This document shows, one piece after another, positions 11,853 through 38,719 of a stretch of 49,704 bases of DNA. Position 1 is the first letter of the stretch; each line of letters starts with the position of its first letter. The notes under the pieces are model-generated. The model ran no database searches, had not been told where the DNA came from, and saw only the letters and a list, made by a program, of their open reading frames with translations. The stretch covers positions 1 through 49,704 of the forward strand of contig JACCWM010000203.1 in assembly GCA_013697635.1 (NCBI GenBank). Direction: 5' to 3'. Source of the stretch: Lujinxingiaceae bacterium. Its GTDB lineage: Bacteria; Myxococcota_A; Bradymonadia; Bradymonadales; Bradymonadaceae. Position numbers and translations under genes: made by a program.

Positions 11853-14800
11853 TCAGGGAGTGAGGGTGACCGGTGTGACATTGGAGAAGCCTTGGCGCGC
11901 CGAGTTGGTCGTGCGCGTTCTGGACGATTGAAAGAGCACGCGCTGAAAGTCGTACCAGCCGCTGGTGCCGGCTGCCGGGCGCTTGCCTGCCAGGGGGTAG
12001 ATGCGCAGGCTGTGCACCTTGCCGCTCCAGTTGGGATGATCGCTCATCGGGATGACCAGGGTCTGAAACTTACTGTCACCGCGTGCTTCAAACTTCACCG
12101 TGAAACTCTCGACGCCTTCGACCGCCAGGCAAGTGCTGCTCTCGACGCCCTTGGAGAGCGCTGCCACACCGCCCAGCAGGGTGACCGGTTTGAACAGCGT
12201 CTGGCTGCGGTCACCGGCGCGCTGCTCGATGAACTTCTGTGTGATCGGGTGCAGGCCAGCGGGGTTGCTGAGCATGATGATGTTGCCGGTATGGGTGACC
12301 GAGAAGGCATCGATCAAATTGTCGGCGCGTGTGATGTAGATGTGGTCATCGGAGACGCCACGCGAGATGGCAAAATCGGCGACGGCGCGCGCGGTTGCAA
12401 AGCGGCTGGCGCCCGAGAGACGCCGCGGCGAGGGCAGCTTGCTGGCGATCGCCGCCGAAACCGAAGAGGGACCGCCGACGATGATCGTGCGTTGGATGTT
12501 CAGCGCCGTCAGCGCCGAGCGGGTCTCGGCAGCGACCGTGTCGCCCTGCACGTAGAGCACCGGAATCTTCAGGCCTGCGGCAAGGCTCGCTGCCAAAACG
12601 GCGTCGACGAGGTGGGCACTGTCCGCCGAGACGATCAGCGCCTCACGGGTTGGTGAGCCCATCGACTTGGCCACGACGGCGGCCGTGGTAAAGCGCGTTT
12701 GCCCGGCGAGTCGCTCGGTTTTAGGGCCGAGTGCGCGTACGGCGAGCTCGACGCTTGCGCTGATTGCGCTCGTACCTCCGACAATCACGACCTTGGCCGG
12801 CTTGAGCCGTCGAAGCTCGGTGGCGATTGCCGCCGGCAAGGTATCATTGCCGGTGAGCAGCACGGGGCCGCCAAGCTGAGCGGCCAGCGGTCCGGCGACG
12901 ATCGCGTCGGCCGAGTGCGTGGTGCCGAGCACGAGCACGGCCGTCTGGGCGCCGGCTGGAAACAGATGGCGCGAGACGGCCGCCGACGAGCTGTAGCGAT
13001 CGGCGCCCGAGACGCGCTTGACGCCGGCGCAAGAGTCCGGTGCCCAGGAGATTGCCTTGGTGTGCTTGCCATCGTGGGAGCGGGCGCCGATCACGAGCTG
13101 GTCGAAGCGCGAAGCGTCGATGTTCGTCCAGGCCGGGCTCTGGGCGCAGGCGTTGTTGCCGGTGACGTGCATCGACATCAGGCCGTGATTGGTGTTGTGG
13201 AGAAAACGGTCGTGGTGGCCGTCGTGGCATGCACGCCAGCCTTCGAGGTCGCCGGCGTTCTTCTTGCTGGCGAACTGCCACTCGTCGGCCTTGAGCACAT
13301 CGACCTGGGCATGAGCGCGCAGCACCTTGCCGATCTTGTTGGTCGAGGGGCTGCCACCAAAACTGGTGTGCTCGCCGTAGACGTTGGCGATATGGCGAAC
13401 CCACACACGGATATCCGGGTGATCGGCGCGCCCGACGCTGTATTCGGTCGCGATCAGATCGATCACCACGCGCTTGCTCTCACCGGGCGCGAAGCTGTGC
13501 ATCTCCAAAAGTCCCGTGCGACCCATGTTGTTCTTGGCCGGGTTCTTGGCCTCGGAGTTGGCGCTGTTCACTCGCCAGCTCGAGCGGTTGTGGTGCGGGC
13601 TGTCCGTGTCGATGCGGTAGTTCGTGGCCTTCAAAAACGGGTGCTCGAACCAGTAACCCATGCGCACCGGACCGATGCGAACGCTGGAGCGGTTGGTGAG
13701 CAGCACCTCGGCCTTGAAGCGGTCACCGATCAGCGCATCGCCAATGTGTCGGCTCGAGCCCTGGGGATAGAAGTTGGTCAAGCCCAAAAACTTCACCGAG
13801 AGGTTGGCGTCGTAGCGCGGCGGCGGCGGCGGCGGCGGTGGCGGTTGATTGGTGCTGCCGCCACCACCACCGCCACCACCGCAAACTTGCGGCGAGACGG
13901 TCGTGCCTGCGCGGTACTCCCAGTGCCACAGCTCGCTTGGCACGGTTCGCTTAAAACCAAAGCGCGCGCCGTTTCGGTTGAGCCAGTTGGCCACGCCTGC
14001 GCCGCGGGTATTCAGGTCGAGCGCGAGCCCATTTTGATGATTGCTGTAGCCGGGGCGCGCAGCCAGGTTGCCGTTGTTGCAGCGCTTGCTCAAGTAGCAA
14101 TTGTAGAAGTAGGTCTGCTCGGCCATGGTGCGAAAGCCGCTGACAATCTGGATCCTCACGCCGTCGCGCGCGGCGGCGATGCGCATCTTCTCGTAGGCCG
14201 AAGCCGTGTTGAGCCCGACATTTTTGTGGTCCATCTTGATCACGGTGATGTCGGCCAGGCGCCGGCCACCGGAATAGGCTGCCATCTTTGTCTTGGAGCA
14301 ACTCGTGATCAACTCCTGGCGGCGCACGCTCAAATCGGCGTCATCTTGTTGCACGCTCAACTCGCCAATACGCTCGCTCAGCTCCTCGTCGTCGTCGTCC
14401 AGGCTCATGTAGTCGTCGTCGTCAAAGAGCAGGCTCTCGTCGCCGTGATCATGGTCGTGCTCACCGTGCTCGATCGGATCCTCGAAGAATTCGAAGCGCA
14501 CGTACTCAGGCACCACCGTGGAGCGAAACCGAAAGGCAACGCCGGCCTGGCTCAGGTTGATGATGCCGCCGAACATGCCAGCATAGCTGCTCTCGGGCGC
14601 AAAGCGCGTCCACGTACCCCACTGATCTTCGCTGGTCGCGACCTGGTACTCGATGGCTGGCGCGTCGTCACCGGTAAAGAAGACGTTGATTCCCCTGAAG
14701 GCGAACTCCGGAAGAATCTCGGTGGGCTGGGCCTGGCCGTCGATGAAGAGGTCATCGGTCGCGCCCTCCAGGGTGTAGTCAAAGTCGAAGACCTCGCCGG

Positions 14801-14960
14801 GCAAGTCGGCCTCGATCGCCTCGCTCTCGTTGCCGTTTATCGGTACTTGCGCCTTGGGGCCGTCGTTTTGCTGGATCAACGACTCGCCACAGCCGACGAT
14901 CATGGTCATAACGATCGCCAGGGCGACGAAGTTTCGACATTTTCTTCCAAGCATTTGCAT
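11853..14960 (-). CDS. Lipoprotein: VanY-type D,D-carboxypeptidase fused to CWB2 cell-wall-binding repeats
   Basis: This is a 1035-aa multidomain lipoprotein. After the lipobox (MTMIVGC) there is a beta domain (about 50-170) and a very acidic, His-rich stretch ('HGEHDHDHGDE' then Asp runs). A peptidase M15/VanY domain spans about 235-352, with SxHxxGxAxD as 'SNHQNGLALDL' near 304-314 and the C-terminal zinc/catalytic motif 'ELWHWEY' near 343-349. A poly-Gly/poly-Pro hinge (about 360-383, DNA 13810-13875) leads to a beta-sandwich-like region. Three CWB2 (PF04122) repeats follow at about 645-935, recognised from 'VKRVSGADRYSSSAAVS', 'LAGQTRFTTAA', 'LSGASRFATARA' and 'VVIVGGTSAIS'-type strands. 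The likely role is trimming D-Ala or D-Lac from peptidoglycan while docked to a wall polymer. ATG 14960 has GGAG upstream. Confidence 0.85.
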   Translation of the reverse strand: MQMLGRKCRNFVALAIVMTMIVGCGESLIQQNDGPKAQVPINGNESEAIEADLPGEVFDFDYTLEGATDDLFIDGQAQPTEILPEFAFRGINVFFTGDDAPAIEYQVATSEDQWGTWTRFAPESSYAGMFGGIINLSQAGVAFRFRSTVVPEYVRFEFFEDPIEHGEHDHDHGDESLLFDDDDYMSLDDDDEELSERIGELSVQQDDADLSVRRQELITSCSKTKMAAYSGGRRLADITVIKMDHKNVGLNTASAYEKMRIAAARDGVRIQIVSGFRTMAEQTYFYNCYLSKRCNNGNLAARPGYSNHQNGLALDLNTRGAGVANWLNRNGARFGFKRTVPSELWHWEYRAGTTVSPQVCGGGGGGGGSTNQPPPPPPPPPRYDANLSVKFLGLTNFYPQGSSRHIGDALIGDRFKAEVLLTNRSSVRIGPVRMGYWFEHPFLKATNYRIDTDSPHHNRSSWRVNSANSEAKNPAKNNMGRTGLLEMHSFAPGESKRVVIDLIATEYSVGRADHPDIRVWVRHIANVYGEHTSFGGSPSTNKIGKVLRAHAQVDVLKADEWQFASKKNAGDLEGWRACHDGHHDRFLHNTNHGLMSMHVTGNNACAQSPAWTNIDASRFDQLVIGARSHDGKHTKAISWAPDSCAGVKRVSGADRYSSSAAVSRHLFPAGAQTAVLVLGTTHSADAIVAGPLAAQLGGPVLLTGNDTLPAAIATELRRLKPAKVVIVGGTSAISASVELAVRALGPKTERLAGQTRFTTAAVVAKSMGSPTREALIVSADSAHLVDAVLAASLAAGLKIPVLYVQGDTVAAETRSALTALNIQRTIIVGGPSSVSAAIASKLPSPRRLSGASRFATARAVADFAISRGVSDDHIYITRADNLIDAFSVTHTGNIIMLSNPAGLHPITQKFIEQRAGDRSQTLFKPVTLLGGVAALSKGVESSTCLAVEGVESFTVKFEARGDSKFQTLVIPMSDHPNWSGKVHSLRIYPLAGKRPAAGTSGWYDFQRVLFQSSRTRTTNSARQGFSNVTPVTLTP

Positions 14961-34216: not shown

Positions 34217-34258
34217 CATTGATCTTATGCAGTTCGCGTTATGCGCCAGGAGGTCCCC

Positions 34259-36817
34259 ATGAGAGCGTCCATCATACAATCACTTCTCTCTTTTGTTGTG
34301 ACCTTCTTTGTCGCCTCTTCGGCCTTTGCGGCGACAATTTCCGGCACGATCTACGACTCCAACGGCGTCACGCTCGGTAATGCCAGCATCCAGGTGCGCC
34401 TGTGGGAGCAGACGCCCAAGGGCTATGCGGTCGTGCACACCCAGCTCACCGGCGTTGCTGGCACGTACAGCTTTGTCGACGTCGCCGCAGGCACCTACAA
34501 GCTCAACGCTCGGATGGCGCCGGGTTTTAGCGGTCATTATGGAGACACCTGGTACGACAAGGTCGAGCCGAGCTCCGATGGTGTCTTCTCAGCCGATGCC
34601 GATGAGTTGACCCTTGGTGCCGAGGCGGTCGTGACGGGCATGAACATCGTCTTACCGCTGACCGGTGGGTTCAATGGGCGCGTCGTGTCGCCGATCGGAA
34701 CTCCCCTGTCGACGATTGGCGTTCGGGCCGAATCGCGCACCGATTATCGCTACCATCACAACGACTTCACCAAAGGCATTACGCCGCGCCTCGGAGAGTA
34801 TTCGATTCGTGGATTGCGAAACAGCCACCCCTACCGCCTGATCGTCTACGACGCCCAGGGGCGCTATGAGACCCTCATCGTTCCCGGACCCTTCAACGTC
34901 AGCAACGCCCTCGATCCCAACCTGGGCAACCATCCGTTGGTCGCCATGGGCAGCGATCCCAATGAGCCCAACAATACGGCTCAAGAGGGCGTTGCAATCG
35001 CCGCCATTCCCTACCAGAGTTCGGGCGCGATCATTTATCCCCGAGGCTCGGACGTCGACTGGTATTGCCTCGACGCCGCGCAAGGCGACCGCCTCTTGGC
35101 CCGGGCTCGCGCCCAGATCACGGTCGACGGCGAAACCCGGCTCCATCCCTGGATCGATCCAATCCTGTCGATGTGGGAGATGACCAACAACACCCTGCTC
35201 GTGTGGAACGATGACGATCCCAACGAGCGAGGGCTGTCGAGCCTTGTGGATTCGGGAAGTCTGGACGCAGGTCGGTACTGCTTTGCCGTGAGCACGTTTG
35301 GCGATACGAACTGGACGGGCACGGGTCAACAAACAGCCGGTCGGTATACCTTTGGCCTCGAGATGGGTAACCGTCGCCCGCTGATCGATGTGACCTACCA
35401 AAGCCAGCCCACGCCTCGCGCGCCGGAGACCATCTTGGTCAACGAGGGCCGGGATCTCACCTTCACCATTGTCTTTAGCGACCCCGATGGCGACAACCTC
35501 CAACCGGTAGTGCGCCATCTCGACAACAACGGCCAGGCCGTTCAGGGCGAGCTCGTCCAGGGCGCGGGAGGCACGTTTTATCGATGGAACGTCGCCTTAC
35601 AAGCGGCCATCCTCAGCCCCTACGAGCTGACCTTCTCGGTCAACGACGGCGAGTTTTCCTCGGCGGTCCATGTCATCGTCGAGGTCGAAGCGATCAATGT
35701 GCCCCCGACCACCCCGGTTCAGATTTCGCCGATCGGCGGCGTGCGCGTCGGCGTCGATGAAGCTGACCTGGTCGTGCTCAATGCGACCGACGCCAACGGC
35801 GACGCCCTCACCTACGAGTTCGAACTTCACGAAGAGAGCGTTGACGGCACAGCCGATCAAGTTGCCAGCGTCTCCGAGCACGCTTCGGGCTCGACGAGTT
35901 GGACGACGGCCGCGATCGCGGAGAACACGCTCGTTTTCTGGCGCGTGCGCGCCTTCGACGGCAAGATCGATGGCGGCTACAGCCCCTGGTCGGCCTGGGA
36001 GAGCTTCATGGTCGACACGCTCAACGAGGCTCCGGCCACACCCGAGATCCTCAAACCCCTGCCCAACGAGCTTGTCGTCGTGACGGCACCGCGCATCTCT
36101 TCGAGCAAGCCCAGCGATCCCGAGGGCGATCCGGTGTCGATCATCTTCGAGGTTGCCACCGACGAAGCCTTTGCGACGATCGTCGCCACCAGCGCTGCCG
36201 TGGCTGCCTCAAATGCCGCCAACACGGTCGAGTGGACCGTCAATCCAGGCCTCGACGGCGGCTTGCGCTACTTTGTGCGCGCCAAGGCTCAAGACGATCG
36301 CGGCGCTGAGAGCGATTGGTCGGCCGTGGTCTCTTTCAACGTGCGCTCGGACAGCAATTGGCCGGCGCCGTCGTTTCGAGGAGAGCTCGCTGCGCAGTGC
36401 GAGCAAGGCTATCCGATCGGCAAAAATTTGAGCGTCTTGACCTTCACAAACGTCGACGCGAGCGGGCCTGCCCTGAGCTTCGAGCTCCACGTGCTGCGCG
36501 ATGGCGAGGCGGTCTTTGAAACCATCGTTCGCCAGAGTTGGGGCGCTCAAACCGAGATCGCCATCGATTCGACAGCCTTTAGAGCCGACGGCGCCTACCG
36601 CATCCGCGTGCGAACGATCGAAGGTGACCAGTTTGGCGATTGGTCGGAGTGTCAGGCCTATGTGGGCAACAAGCCCAATTCAAATCCCGACGGCACACCG
36701 ACCACAGGCGAAGACGGTTGCGGTTGCGCGGCGGCAGGCTCCGGCAAAGAAGGCGCAAGCTGGGCCGTCTTGCTGCTGATGCTCGCTGGCGTCTATCGCC
36801 TGCGCCGTCGTCGCTGA
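34259..36817 (+). CDS. Multidomain surface protein with MYXO-CTERM-like anchor
   Basis: This 852-aa exported protein has a signal peptide of about 24 residues (AFA|AT). A carboxypeptidase-regulatory-like fold follows at about 25-120 ('ATISGTIYDSNGVTLGNASI'-type start, 'GTYSFVDVAAGTYKL'). A pre-peptidase C-terminal-like (PPC) domain spans about 225-360 ('DPNEPNNTAQEGVAI', 'SDVDWYCLDAAQGDRLL'). Several Ig/fibronectin-III-like domains follow ('FTIVFSDPDGDNL', 'VFWRVRAFDGKIDGGYSPW'). The C-terminus has 'EDGCGCAAAGSG', a hydrophobic stretch and 'RLRRRR', the MYXO-CTERM sorting pattern, which is thought to be processed by a rhomboid-like protease and to direct surface display. AGGAGG (34248-34253) stands 5 bp before ATG 34259, so that start is firm. 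No catalytic domain is seen. Confidence 0.85.
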   Translation: MRASIIQSLLSFVVTFFVASSAFAATISGTIYDSNGVTLGNASIQVRLWEQTPKGYAVVHTQLTGVAGTYSFVDVAAGTYKLNARMAPGFSGHYGDTWYDKVEPSSDGVFSADADELTLGAEAVVTGMNIVLPLTGGFNGRVVSPIGTPLSTIGVRAESRTDYRYHHNDFTKGITPRLGEYSIRGLRNSHPYRLIVYDAQGRYETLIVPGPFNVSNALDPNLGNHPLVAMGSDPNEPNNTAQEGVAIAAIPYQSSGAIIYPRGSDVDWYCLDAAQGDRLLARARAQITVDGETRLHPWIDPILSMWEMTNNTLLVWNDDDPNERGLSSLVDSGSLDAGRYCFAVSTFGDTNWTGTGQQTAGRYTFGLEMGNRRPLIDVTYQSQPTPRAPETILVNEGRDLTFTIVFSDPDGDNLQPVVRHLDNNGQAVQGELVQGAGGTFYRWNVALQAAILSPYELTFSVNDGEFSSAVHVIVEVEAINVPPTTPVQISPIGGVRVGVDEADLVVLNATDANGDALTYEFELHEESVDGTADQVASVSEHASGSTSWTTAAIAENTLVFWRVRAFDGKIDGGYSPWSAWESFMVDTLNEAPATPEILKPLPNELVVVTAPRISSSKPSDPEGDPVSIIFEVATDEAFATIVATSAAVAASNAANTVEWTVNPGLDGGLRYFVRAKAQDDRGAESDWSAVVSFNVRSDSNWPAPSFRGELAAQCEQGYPIGKNLSVLTFTNVDASGPALSFELHVLRDGEAVFETIVRQSWGAQTEIAIDSTAFRADGAYRIRVRTIEGDQFGDWSECQAYVGNKPNSNPDGTPTTGEDGCGCAAAGSGKEGASWAVLLLMLAGVYRLRRRR

Positions 36818-36851: not shown

Positions 36852-38408
36852 CTACTCTGCCTCGCAAGGCCCCTTGGCGGCTACTTCGACGTGGTTGGCG
36901 CTGGCCTCGCATTGATTGCCGTAGGTCTTGCCGTCCACACCGCAGACCGGGTCGTAGATGTCCGGGCAGGCCACGCCGAGGCAGGCGCCTTCAATGCAGA
37001 AGTGCCACAGCTCACAGTCGGCGTTCTTGGTGCACGCGGCCTCTTTGGGTACGCAGACGCCACCGCCGCCGCAATCGCGGGTGCAGCCCCAATCGCTGGC
37101 CCCCTCACCGCAGGCGCAGCTCGTCGGCGCGCACTCATCGGTGTCTTTTTGGCACTTGTAGTCGGACGGGCAGCCGTATTGTGTGCAGCCAGACGGGCTC
37201 GGGCCCTGGCAGCTTCCGCCCTTAGGCAGGCAGGGCCCACGGTAGGCGATCGTCACGCCGGCGCCACGCGCTTCGCACTCATTGCCAAAGGTGCGCCCAT
37301 CGGTGGCGCAGACCGGATCGTAGATCCTCGTGCAGGCAAGCGCCACGCATTCATCGCCCTGGCACACGCTGCCCTCATCACAGGTGACATCGGCACTGCA
37401 AGGCTTGGCCGGCCCGTCGACGCACTCGCCGCCGCCCAGATCGTCGGTGCAGATCCATTGCCCGTCGTCACCACAACCGCACGCGGAGGGCTTTCCGGCG
37501 TTGAGCTGGCAGCTCTGGCCAGCCTTGCATTGGTCATCGGAGTGACAACCCGCCGGATTGGGCCCCTCACAGGGCGCATGCTCCTTGCACTCGCCAGCGT
37601 GTGCAACCGTGACGTGGTAGGCGCCGGCGACGCAGGCGTTGCCATAGGTCTTGCCGTCCTCACCGCAGACCGGGTCGTACTGCATCGTGCAGGCGAACTC
37701 CTGGCACGCTCCGGCGTTACACATCGTCCAAAACGGGCAATCCGAGTTCTCACTGCACTCGTCACCGCCGACACAGTAGCCGGGCTGGCAGTCGTCGGTG
37801 CAAATCCCGCCACAGGTATCGCAAAAGCTCGCGTAGCAGCCGTCGTTGTAGTCGAGCTTGCAACGCTGACCGTTGGCGCATTGATCGTTGGTGCTGCATC
37901 CCGAGTTGGCTGTGCACGAGTCGGCCGGCACACATTCATTGACCGCCAGGTGACAGCGCTCATCGCTGCCACAATCCTCGTCTTTGTCGCACGTGCTCGG
38001 AGCGGGCTTGCACACCCGCGCCATCAGACAATCCGTCGTACATTCCCAATACCCGCTCGCCACATCACAGGTGCAATGCGATGGGAAGCAGCCATCCGCG
38101 GCGTTCGTTGAGCAAACATCGGTCCCGCTGCACTCCGTGTCAGACTCGCATTCCGTGGTATGGAGCGAGGGGTTTTCGCCCTCGCAGGCCTTCGTCGTGT
38201 CCTCGGTACACACGCCCGCCACGCAGGCCTGCCCGCTCGGACAATCCGTCTCCAACAAACACGCCAGCGGAGCCTTGTTCTTCTGGGCGTCTTCGTCATC
38301 TGGCTCGCCACAGGCCGCAAGACCGACAAAGAGCGTCAGCAGTAACAGAATTATGAATCGACACCCTCGAAATTCTGACGGGTTGGTTTGCTTCGTCAAT
38401 AATCGCAT
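36852..38408 (-). CDS. Cysteine-rich lipoprotein with three Kazal-type inhibitor domains
   Basis: This is a 518-aa lipoprotein (lipobox GLAAC, Cys33) with dozens of cysteines. It carries short 'CxxxxDCxxGxxC' modules and three Kazal domains near residues 236-270, 355-390 and 480-515, each with the signature 'YDPVCG.DGKTYGN.C' ('YDPVCGEDGKTYGNAC', 'YDPVCATDGRTFGNEC', 'YDPVCGVDGKTYGNQC'). Kazal folds inhibit serine proteases by a canonical loop; the second domain has Ala instead of Gly and may differ in specificity. It probably sits on the outside of the outer membrane and guards against proteases of prey, host or competitors. The starts at 38423 (TTG) and 38417 lack a proper ribosome site; ATG 38408 has GAGG 8-9 bp upstream. 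Confidence 0.85.
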   Translation of the reverse strand: MRLLTKQTNPSEFRGCRFIILLLLTLFVGLAACGEPDDEDAQKNKAPLACLLETDCPSGQACVAGVCTEDTTKACEGENPSLHTTECESDTECSGTDVCSTNAADGCFPSHCTCDVASGYWECTTDCLMARVCKPAPSTCDKDEDCGSDERCHLAVNECVPADSCTANSGCSTNDQCANGQRCKLDYNDGCYASFCDTCGGICTDDCQPGYCVGGDECSENSDCPFWTMCNAGACQEFACTMQYDPVCGEDGKTYGNACVAGAYHVTVAHAGECKEHAPCEGPNPAGCHSDDQCKAGQSCQLNAGKPSACGCGDDGQWICTDDLGGGECVDGPAKPCSADVTCDEGSVCQGDECVALACTRIYDPVCATDGRTFGNECEARGAGVTIAYRGPCLPKGGSCQGPSPSGCTQYGCPSDYKCQKDTDECAPTSCACGEGASDWGCTRDCGGGGVCVPKEAACTKNADCELWHFCIEGACLGVACPDIYDPVCGVDGKTYGNQCEASANHVEVAAKGPCEAE

Positions 38409-38719
38409 CGTAAACATCCTCAATGAAATGGCGCGCTATCTACCTTTGATGAGAATCCGCTCGGAACCCTCGGGGCGAATACCTCTGACTCTGACACAGG
38501 ATTCTGCAAGAGCTATACCAGCTGAGCCAATCCATGGCACCATCCAACCAAGACCTTTTTTCATGCTCGCCACCTCAATTGTACGGTGCAAAAACGCTCA
38601 ATGCTGGCAAGACCGCAGTCAGTTGCGCGTGCCGTGCAGCTCTCGGCCGTCACCGCCTCCACCCGCTTCACCTACGCTGGTGGCACCCGCCCCGGCCCAA
38701 GTCATGCCCGGCTTCACCC
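38409..38719. other. Non-coding spacer with tRNA-like D-arm remnant
   Basis: This 311-bp stretch between the Kazal lipoprotein start and the pseudogene shows no convincing gene. On the minus strand, 38506-38529 reads GGCTCAGCTGGTATAGCTC plus flanks, close to a tRNA D-arm. The expected anticodon stem, T-loop and acceptor pairing after it fail, so it is at most a decayed tRNA or a chance match. The rest (38541-38719) is GC-rich without structure that I recognise. Confidence 0.35.

Follow-up and report, generated by a model that had tools for sequence, protein, structure and literature searches.

Within the window (the whole 49,704-nucleotide stretch of DNA analysed here), a continuous open reading frame on the reverse strand, 11853-14960, starts with an ATG at 14960 and reads as a protein of 1035 residues; initiation at a GTG codon 36 bases farther upstream would lengthen it to 1047. 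From its N-terminus onwards, this protein comprises a lipobox, a beta-rich domain, an acidic linker with a His/Asp cluster, the VanY/M15 domain, a hinge of Gly and Pro, and a C-terminal region, here termed module X, with a triplet of CWB2 repeats inside it (Table 1). The original prediction of a lipoprotein that combines an M15 peptidase with three CWB2 repeats, placed at residues ~645-935, is borne out. Pfam recovers VanY (PF02557) at residues 251-350 with an E-value of 8.4e-16, far above the curated cut-off, and CW_binding_2 (PF04122) in three stretches, with a whole-protein E-value of 2.6e-36 and 124.5 bits against a curated cut-off of 24.9. No functional link was found between this gene and the genes adjoining it.

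Table 1. Features of the window protein and their positions in the window.
Feature	Residues	Position	Strand	Basis
Lipoprotein signal peptide, lipobox IVGC24	1-24	14889..14960	-	Sequence; similar lipobox-like motif in several sister enzymes
Beta-rich accessory domain, N-terminal, WGTW motif	~58-160	14481..14789	-	Relatives search; prediction all-beta, middling confidence
Acidic linker with His/Asp cluster, net charge -18	163-206	14343..14474	-	Sequence; recurs in own-genome paralogues L041, L042, L046
M15 (VanY) zinc carboxypeptidase domain	219-366	13863..14306	-	Pfam, AlphaFold, Foldseek
Poly-Gly/poly-Pro hinge	361-382	13815..13880	-	Sequence
Module X domain X1 (Ig/CARDB-like)	~385-556	13293..13808	-	12-row alignment; fold match on L128 model
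Module X domain X2, first half	~560-643	13032..13283	-	Alignment; CBM36-like match on low-confidence L128 model
C644, first cap cysteine of cassette	644	13029..13031	-	Invariant in 8 aligned Myxococcota triplets
CWB2 repeat 1, PVLL	649-738	12747..13016	-	Pfam, E 2.8e-18
CWB2 repeat 2, PVLY	750-838	12447..12713	-	Pfam, E 1.1e-12
CWB2 repeat 3, NIIML, Pro replaced	847-940	12141..12422	-	Pfam, E 8.6e-6
C944, second cap cysteine of cassette	944	12129..12131	-	Invariant in 8 aligned Myxococcota triplets
Module X domain X2, second half, WSGKVHSLRIYPL	945-1035	11856..12128	-	Adjoins first half directly in CWB2-less relatives

The N-terminal accessory domain is common to the VanY paralogues of the same genome and is shared weakly with one amidase relative. 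A His/Asp-rich cluster ahead of the catalytic domain recurs in wall hydrolases of the window lineage, including L041, L042, L046, L049 and L023; elsewhere it was found in one of 78 Myxococcota M15 proteins. The metal store that the original prediction considered for this cluster found no support in the analyses.

The zinc motifs of the catalytic domain are intact: S306-N-H308-Q-N-G-L-A-L-D315 and E343-L-W-H346, with H308, D315, E343 and H346 as the key residues. These motifs are nearly invariant across aligned relatives, and the domain further contains four conserved cysteines (C221, C288, C294 and C360). The structure prediction envisaged alongside the original prediction succeeded for this domain only. 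The AlphaFold model of the full protein has a mean pLDDT of 53.9; the M15 part is reliable (pLDDT ~95), and the CWB2 repeats and module X are modelled too poorly for the C644-C944 distance to be read from it. Foldseek matches to the full model fall mostly on the M15 domain, which resembles VanYB (5hnm) and BaLdcB (4jid/4mph), with generic beta-sandwich matches in addition. Sequence matches of the domain in the PDB are BaLdcB, VanYB and LdcB.

The fold and zinc motifs are thus those of the LdcB/DacB and VanY(B) carboxypeptidases. Those enzymes are small and single-domain, whereas the window protein is multidomain and scores far under the NCBIfam subtype cut-offs (35.8 bits against 275 for LdcB; 30.0 against 250 for VanY-N). 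A Myxococcota M15 subfamily with conserved cysteines, represented by 80 named loci, has ~48-65% identity to the window catalytic domain. All of these loci are filed as Myxococcota, (delta)proteobacteria or unclassified bacteria, except one Planctomycetota MAG. None of the 80 carries CWB2, and their other parts differ (Ig, FG-GAP, MopE, amidase, TSP3). A 2019 review of M15 partner domains lists PGB3, SH3-3 and SH3-4, and not CWB2 (PMC6403190).

Searching 58 related genomes with the whole protein shows where the CWB2 triplet sits. Residues ~378-642 and ~951-1033 are conserved jointly, and they are contiguous in proteins without CWB2. From this conservation, we define the two segments as a previously undescribed C-terminal part of two predicted domains, module X, of which ~260 residues lie between the hinge and CWB2 and ~90 residues follow CWB2. 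As module X lies on both sides of the repeats, CWB2 interrupts the module instead of forming a C-terminal tail. This revises the original prediction: its domains, lipobox, diderm host and rarity of the fusion stand, but the hinge that it took for the M15-CWB2 joint connects M15 to module X, which it had missed, and CWB2 sits in a loop of X.

At the sequence level, module X matches neither a Pfam family nor a PDB entry. In relatives it follows an Amidase_2, VanY or M23 domain, and GH25 in one more. Four of 12 aligned X rows carry a CWB2 triplet in one identical loop of the second half of X: the window protein (VanY), a G017 protein (Amidase_2) and two G019 proteins (one M23, one Amidase_2). At this site the other eight rows have a short loop of the GESF-SEER type, among them L046, a VanY-X paralogue from the same genome. 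In a tree, the four inserted triplets group as a clade (support 95/92), which suggests either a single insertion followed by exchange of the catalytic domain, or the reverse. A separate locus in G014 (L057:4115-4978) holds a remnant of a CWB2-X protein, consisting of the last repeat, the second half of X2 and a sorting-type tail.

Possible folds for module X come from a model of the L128 copy. Its X1 part matches an Ig-like sandwich (7wrk; Z 12.8, rmsd 3.1 Å over 142 residues), and its X2 part matches the sandwich of 2dcj (Z 9.3, rmsd 2.2 Å over 97 residues), which we take to be CBM36-type. The mean pLDDT of this model is 58.6, so the matches are only leads: X1 may be an Ig-like domain, and X2 may resemble a carbohydrate-binding sandwich. 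In two named MAGs, module X occurs after a GH25 lysozyme (L128:4898-5935) and after M15 (L084:5487-6425), and MopE-type metal-binding repeats follow it.

Within the window lineage, the wall-docking part appears exchangeable. L046 has VanY and X with neither CWB2 nor SLH, and L041 is a VanY paralogue that likewise lacks both. A further protein of this genome (L042:4416-7106, contig C125) has the same N-terminus and VanY chassis, with SLH repeats in place of X and CWB2. The lineage thus seems to swap docking parts on one chassis: CWB2 in the window protein; SLH in L042; and neither in L041 and L046.

The inserted cassette has a second distinguishing feature. In eight of nine Myxococcota CWB2 triplets, only two cysteines are present; one occupies the opening position and the other the final position or one close to it. 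These eight are the window triplet, those of G017 and G019 (one and two), three others from the window genome, and one from a G365 zincin. The ninth (G135) has no cysteines and belongs to a protein of a different kind on a 4-kb contig. None of ten Gram-positive or phage comparator triplets has both end cysteines. Triplets of CWB2 form a closed prism of pseudo-threefold symmetry, with strands swapped between repeats (PMC8881574). In the window protein, C644 and C944 probably form a disulfide that staples the ends of the cassette together. With its ends so held, the triplet could sit within a loop of another domain.

For the CWB2 repeats, the sequence matches in the PDB are Cwp8, Cwp6 and SlpA of Clostridioides difficile. 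Members of this Cwp family (Cwp6 amidase, 5j72; Cwp8, 5j6q; SlpA) share with the window protein three CWB2 repeats and a PILL-like run, and Cwp6 likewise joins a wall hydrolase to CWB2. In the Cwp family, CWB2 anchors a monoderm host's own surface proteins to the anionic polymer PSII, whereas the window protein is a lipoprotein of a diderm, with an M15 enzyme, a cassette inside another domain and a cysteine cap. Binding to PSII in C. difficile needs three repeats and the ILL run, and the proline of PILL is dispensable (PMC4973711). The window repeats keep this motif only in part: they read PVLL, PVLY and NIIML, with the hydrophobic run kept in repeats 1 and 3. Among fourteen triplets compared, only that of the window is clearly basic, with a net charge of +10; the other 13 range from +1 to -46, with strongly acidic values for the inserted triplets from G017 and G019.

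A layout like that of the window protein also occurs in L166 (scaffold MT835786), filed as an unverified phage scaffold: a WGAW-type N-terminal stretch, an amidase-like domain and three CWB2 repeats. There, in contrast to the window protein, CWB2 is C-terminal with no surrounding module X, and only one flanking cysteine is present. On our reading of its sequence, L166 is probably an amidase of actinobacterial origin.

The fusion is rare, as had been anticipated. A profile scan of 379 genomes from the phylum, many of them incomplete, finds CWB2 in 6; within the order, 4 of 26 genomes have it, which makes it an accessory part. M15 and CWB2 occur together only in the window protein, among the CWB2 proteins of the phylum and the 80 named M15 relatives. 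Scans for close relatives of the whole protein in genomic and viral contig collections gave no match, and scans of the viral collection with CWB2 queries gave no confirmed match. CWB2 itself is not isolated in this genome: three further proteins carry it, and there are two SLH proteins besides L042. Of the CWB2 proteins, L044:3649-5895 is an M64 (IgA-peptidase-type) protein, and L043:4508-6958 and L045:3519-5771 are Cys-rich EGF-like/DUF7107 proteins; all three have a C-terminal, Cys-capped triplet. A Myxococcota genome from a different family encodes a zincin-like (matrixin/reprolysin-like) metalloprotease with a Cys-capped triplet (L165:3842-5722).

The genome contains seven Omp85 matches, and the host is therefore diderm, as predicted. 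The LptD profile (PF04453) finds no match in this genome (G000): LptD may have diverged, or the outer leaflet may be of another kind. Given the Omp85 matches, this absence was given no weight as evidence on the envelope type. The LCP family of wall-polymer ligases, detected in 7 of 14 controls, is likewise without a match here, which speaks against a wall polymer that the host makes itself and attaches through LCP. One polysaccharide pyruvyl transferase (PF04230) is present. In Myxococcota, the MYXO-CTERM tag sorts its carriers to the outer surface (PMC11980579), and 24 proteins of this genome exceed its cut-off. A C-terminus of similar build, with a Cys motif followed by a hydrophobic stretch and an Arg cluster, is present on 18 of the 20 X-bearing relatives that were inspected; as an NCBIfam scan of these tails gave no formal match to the tag, we refer to them as MYXO-CTERM-like. 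No such tail (Cys motif, TM helix, Arg cluster) is present on the window protein.

Taken together, these data lead us to favour, with moderate confidence, a lipid-anchored modular peptidoglycan hydrolase with a swappable CWB2 cassette, directed against the walls of other bacteria. Its action would likely involve: export and lipid anchoring of the enzyme; trimming or cutting of peptidoglycan stem peptides by the zinc M15 domain; docking to glycan or wall through module X, as a generic part of amidase, M15, M23 and GH25 enzymes; and retention on an anionic envelope polymer by the CWB2 triplet, which, probably disulfide-closed in a surface loop of X, would serve as an extra targeting cassette. 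The likeliest target would be the wall of another bacterium at contact, because surface-sorting tails are present on several sister enzymes and no LCP ligase is encoded by the host. Consistent with this proposal, the same loop has received the cassette across three catalytic kinds (M15, M23 and, twice, Amidase_2), the basic charge of the window triplet suits an anionic ligand of the PSII kind, and an SLH version of the chassis exists. Against it, the missing sorting tail leaves a lipobox that fits the periplasm equally, the acidic G017 and G019 triplets suit an anionic ligand poorly, and the gene neighbours lend no support.

A less probable, though still serious, alternative is that the enzyme is self-directed. 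It would then be a lipoprotein of the periplasm or cell surface that acts on the peptidoglycan of its own host in remodelling, and CWB2 would dock it to a home-made acidic glycan (capsule, exopolysaccharide or LPS). M15 carboxypeptidases are often housekeeping enzymes, and a lipobox with no sorting tail fits retention in the own envelope. The pyruvyl transferase might contribute to such a glycan, and a single ligand of the host's own could serve the three additional CWB2 proteins as well as the other two with SLH. PF04230, however, is present in E. coli too and is not diagnostic. The lack of an LCP ligase also counts against this alternative, as does the absence of CWB2 from most of the family, complete genomes included, which indicates that no conserved system for the own wall includes it.

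It is unlikely that the triplet no longer binds glycan and has become a rigid spacer, or a tile packing against other surface CWB2 proteins. In the S-layer of C. difficile, SlpA triplets do pack next to one another (PMC8881574), the PILL motifs are kept only in part, the G017 and G019 triplets are acidic, and one genome holds four CWB2 proteins. Four proteins, however, do not amount to a large CWB2 family of the S-layer kind, the proline of PILL is dispensable in C. difficile, and two of the repeats keep the hydrophobic run. An error of assembly or annotation, or contamination with a Gram-positive gene, is highly improbable despite an assembly in 213 contigs: the frame is continuous, GC is even along the contig, both module X and the M15 subfamily belong natively to Myxococcota, and independent copies of the same insertion in G017 and G019 refute it.

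If the favoured reading of a hydrolase aimed at foreign walls is correct, the setting would be predation. The host's family includes a proven predator, Bradymonas sediminis (G007). Bradymonadales, most likely the order of the host, kill prey on contact and take both Gram-positive and Gram-negative bacteria (PMC7460792, PMC11509652), and their choice is selective within genera, with one Bacillus or Nocardioides species eaten and another not (PMC11509652). Wall hydrolysis of Gram-positive prey by a Gram-negative predator has a precedent in Lysobacter, which secretes LssL (PMC12510463). CWB2 is not needed for predation, as B. sediminis lacks it; G010, probably the predator Persicimonas, lacks it as well.

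This selectivity is unexplained, and a rare, swappable wall-binding cassette on surface-type hydrolases is a concrete candidate for prey recognition. Tentatively, a Gram-negative predator may have adopted a Gram-positive wall-anchoring module as a disulfide-capped prey-recognition cassette, making M15, amidase and M23 hydrolases specific to prey type. We found no report of CWB2 in myxobacteria, and none of CWB2 as an inserted, cysteine-capped domain, a form that is new to the literature searched. Elsewhere in the window, an Ig/FN3-rich protein (34241-36814, forward strand) ends in a MYXO-CTERM sorting tail (E 1.9e-7), and a protein at 36855-38423 on the reverse strand contains three Kazal-type protease-inhibitor domains, which are uncommon in bacteria.
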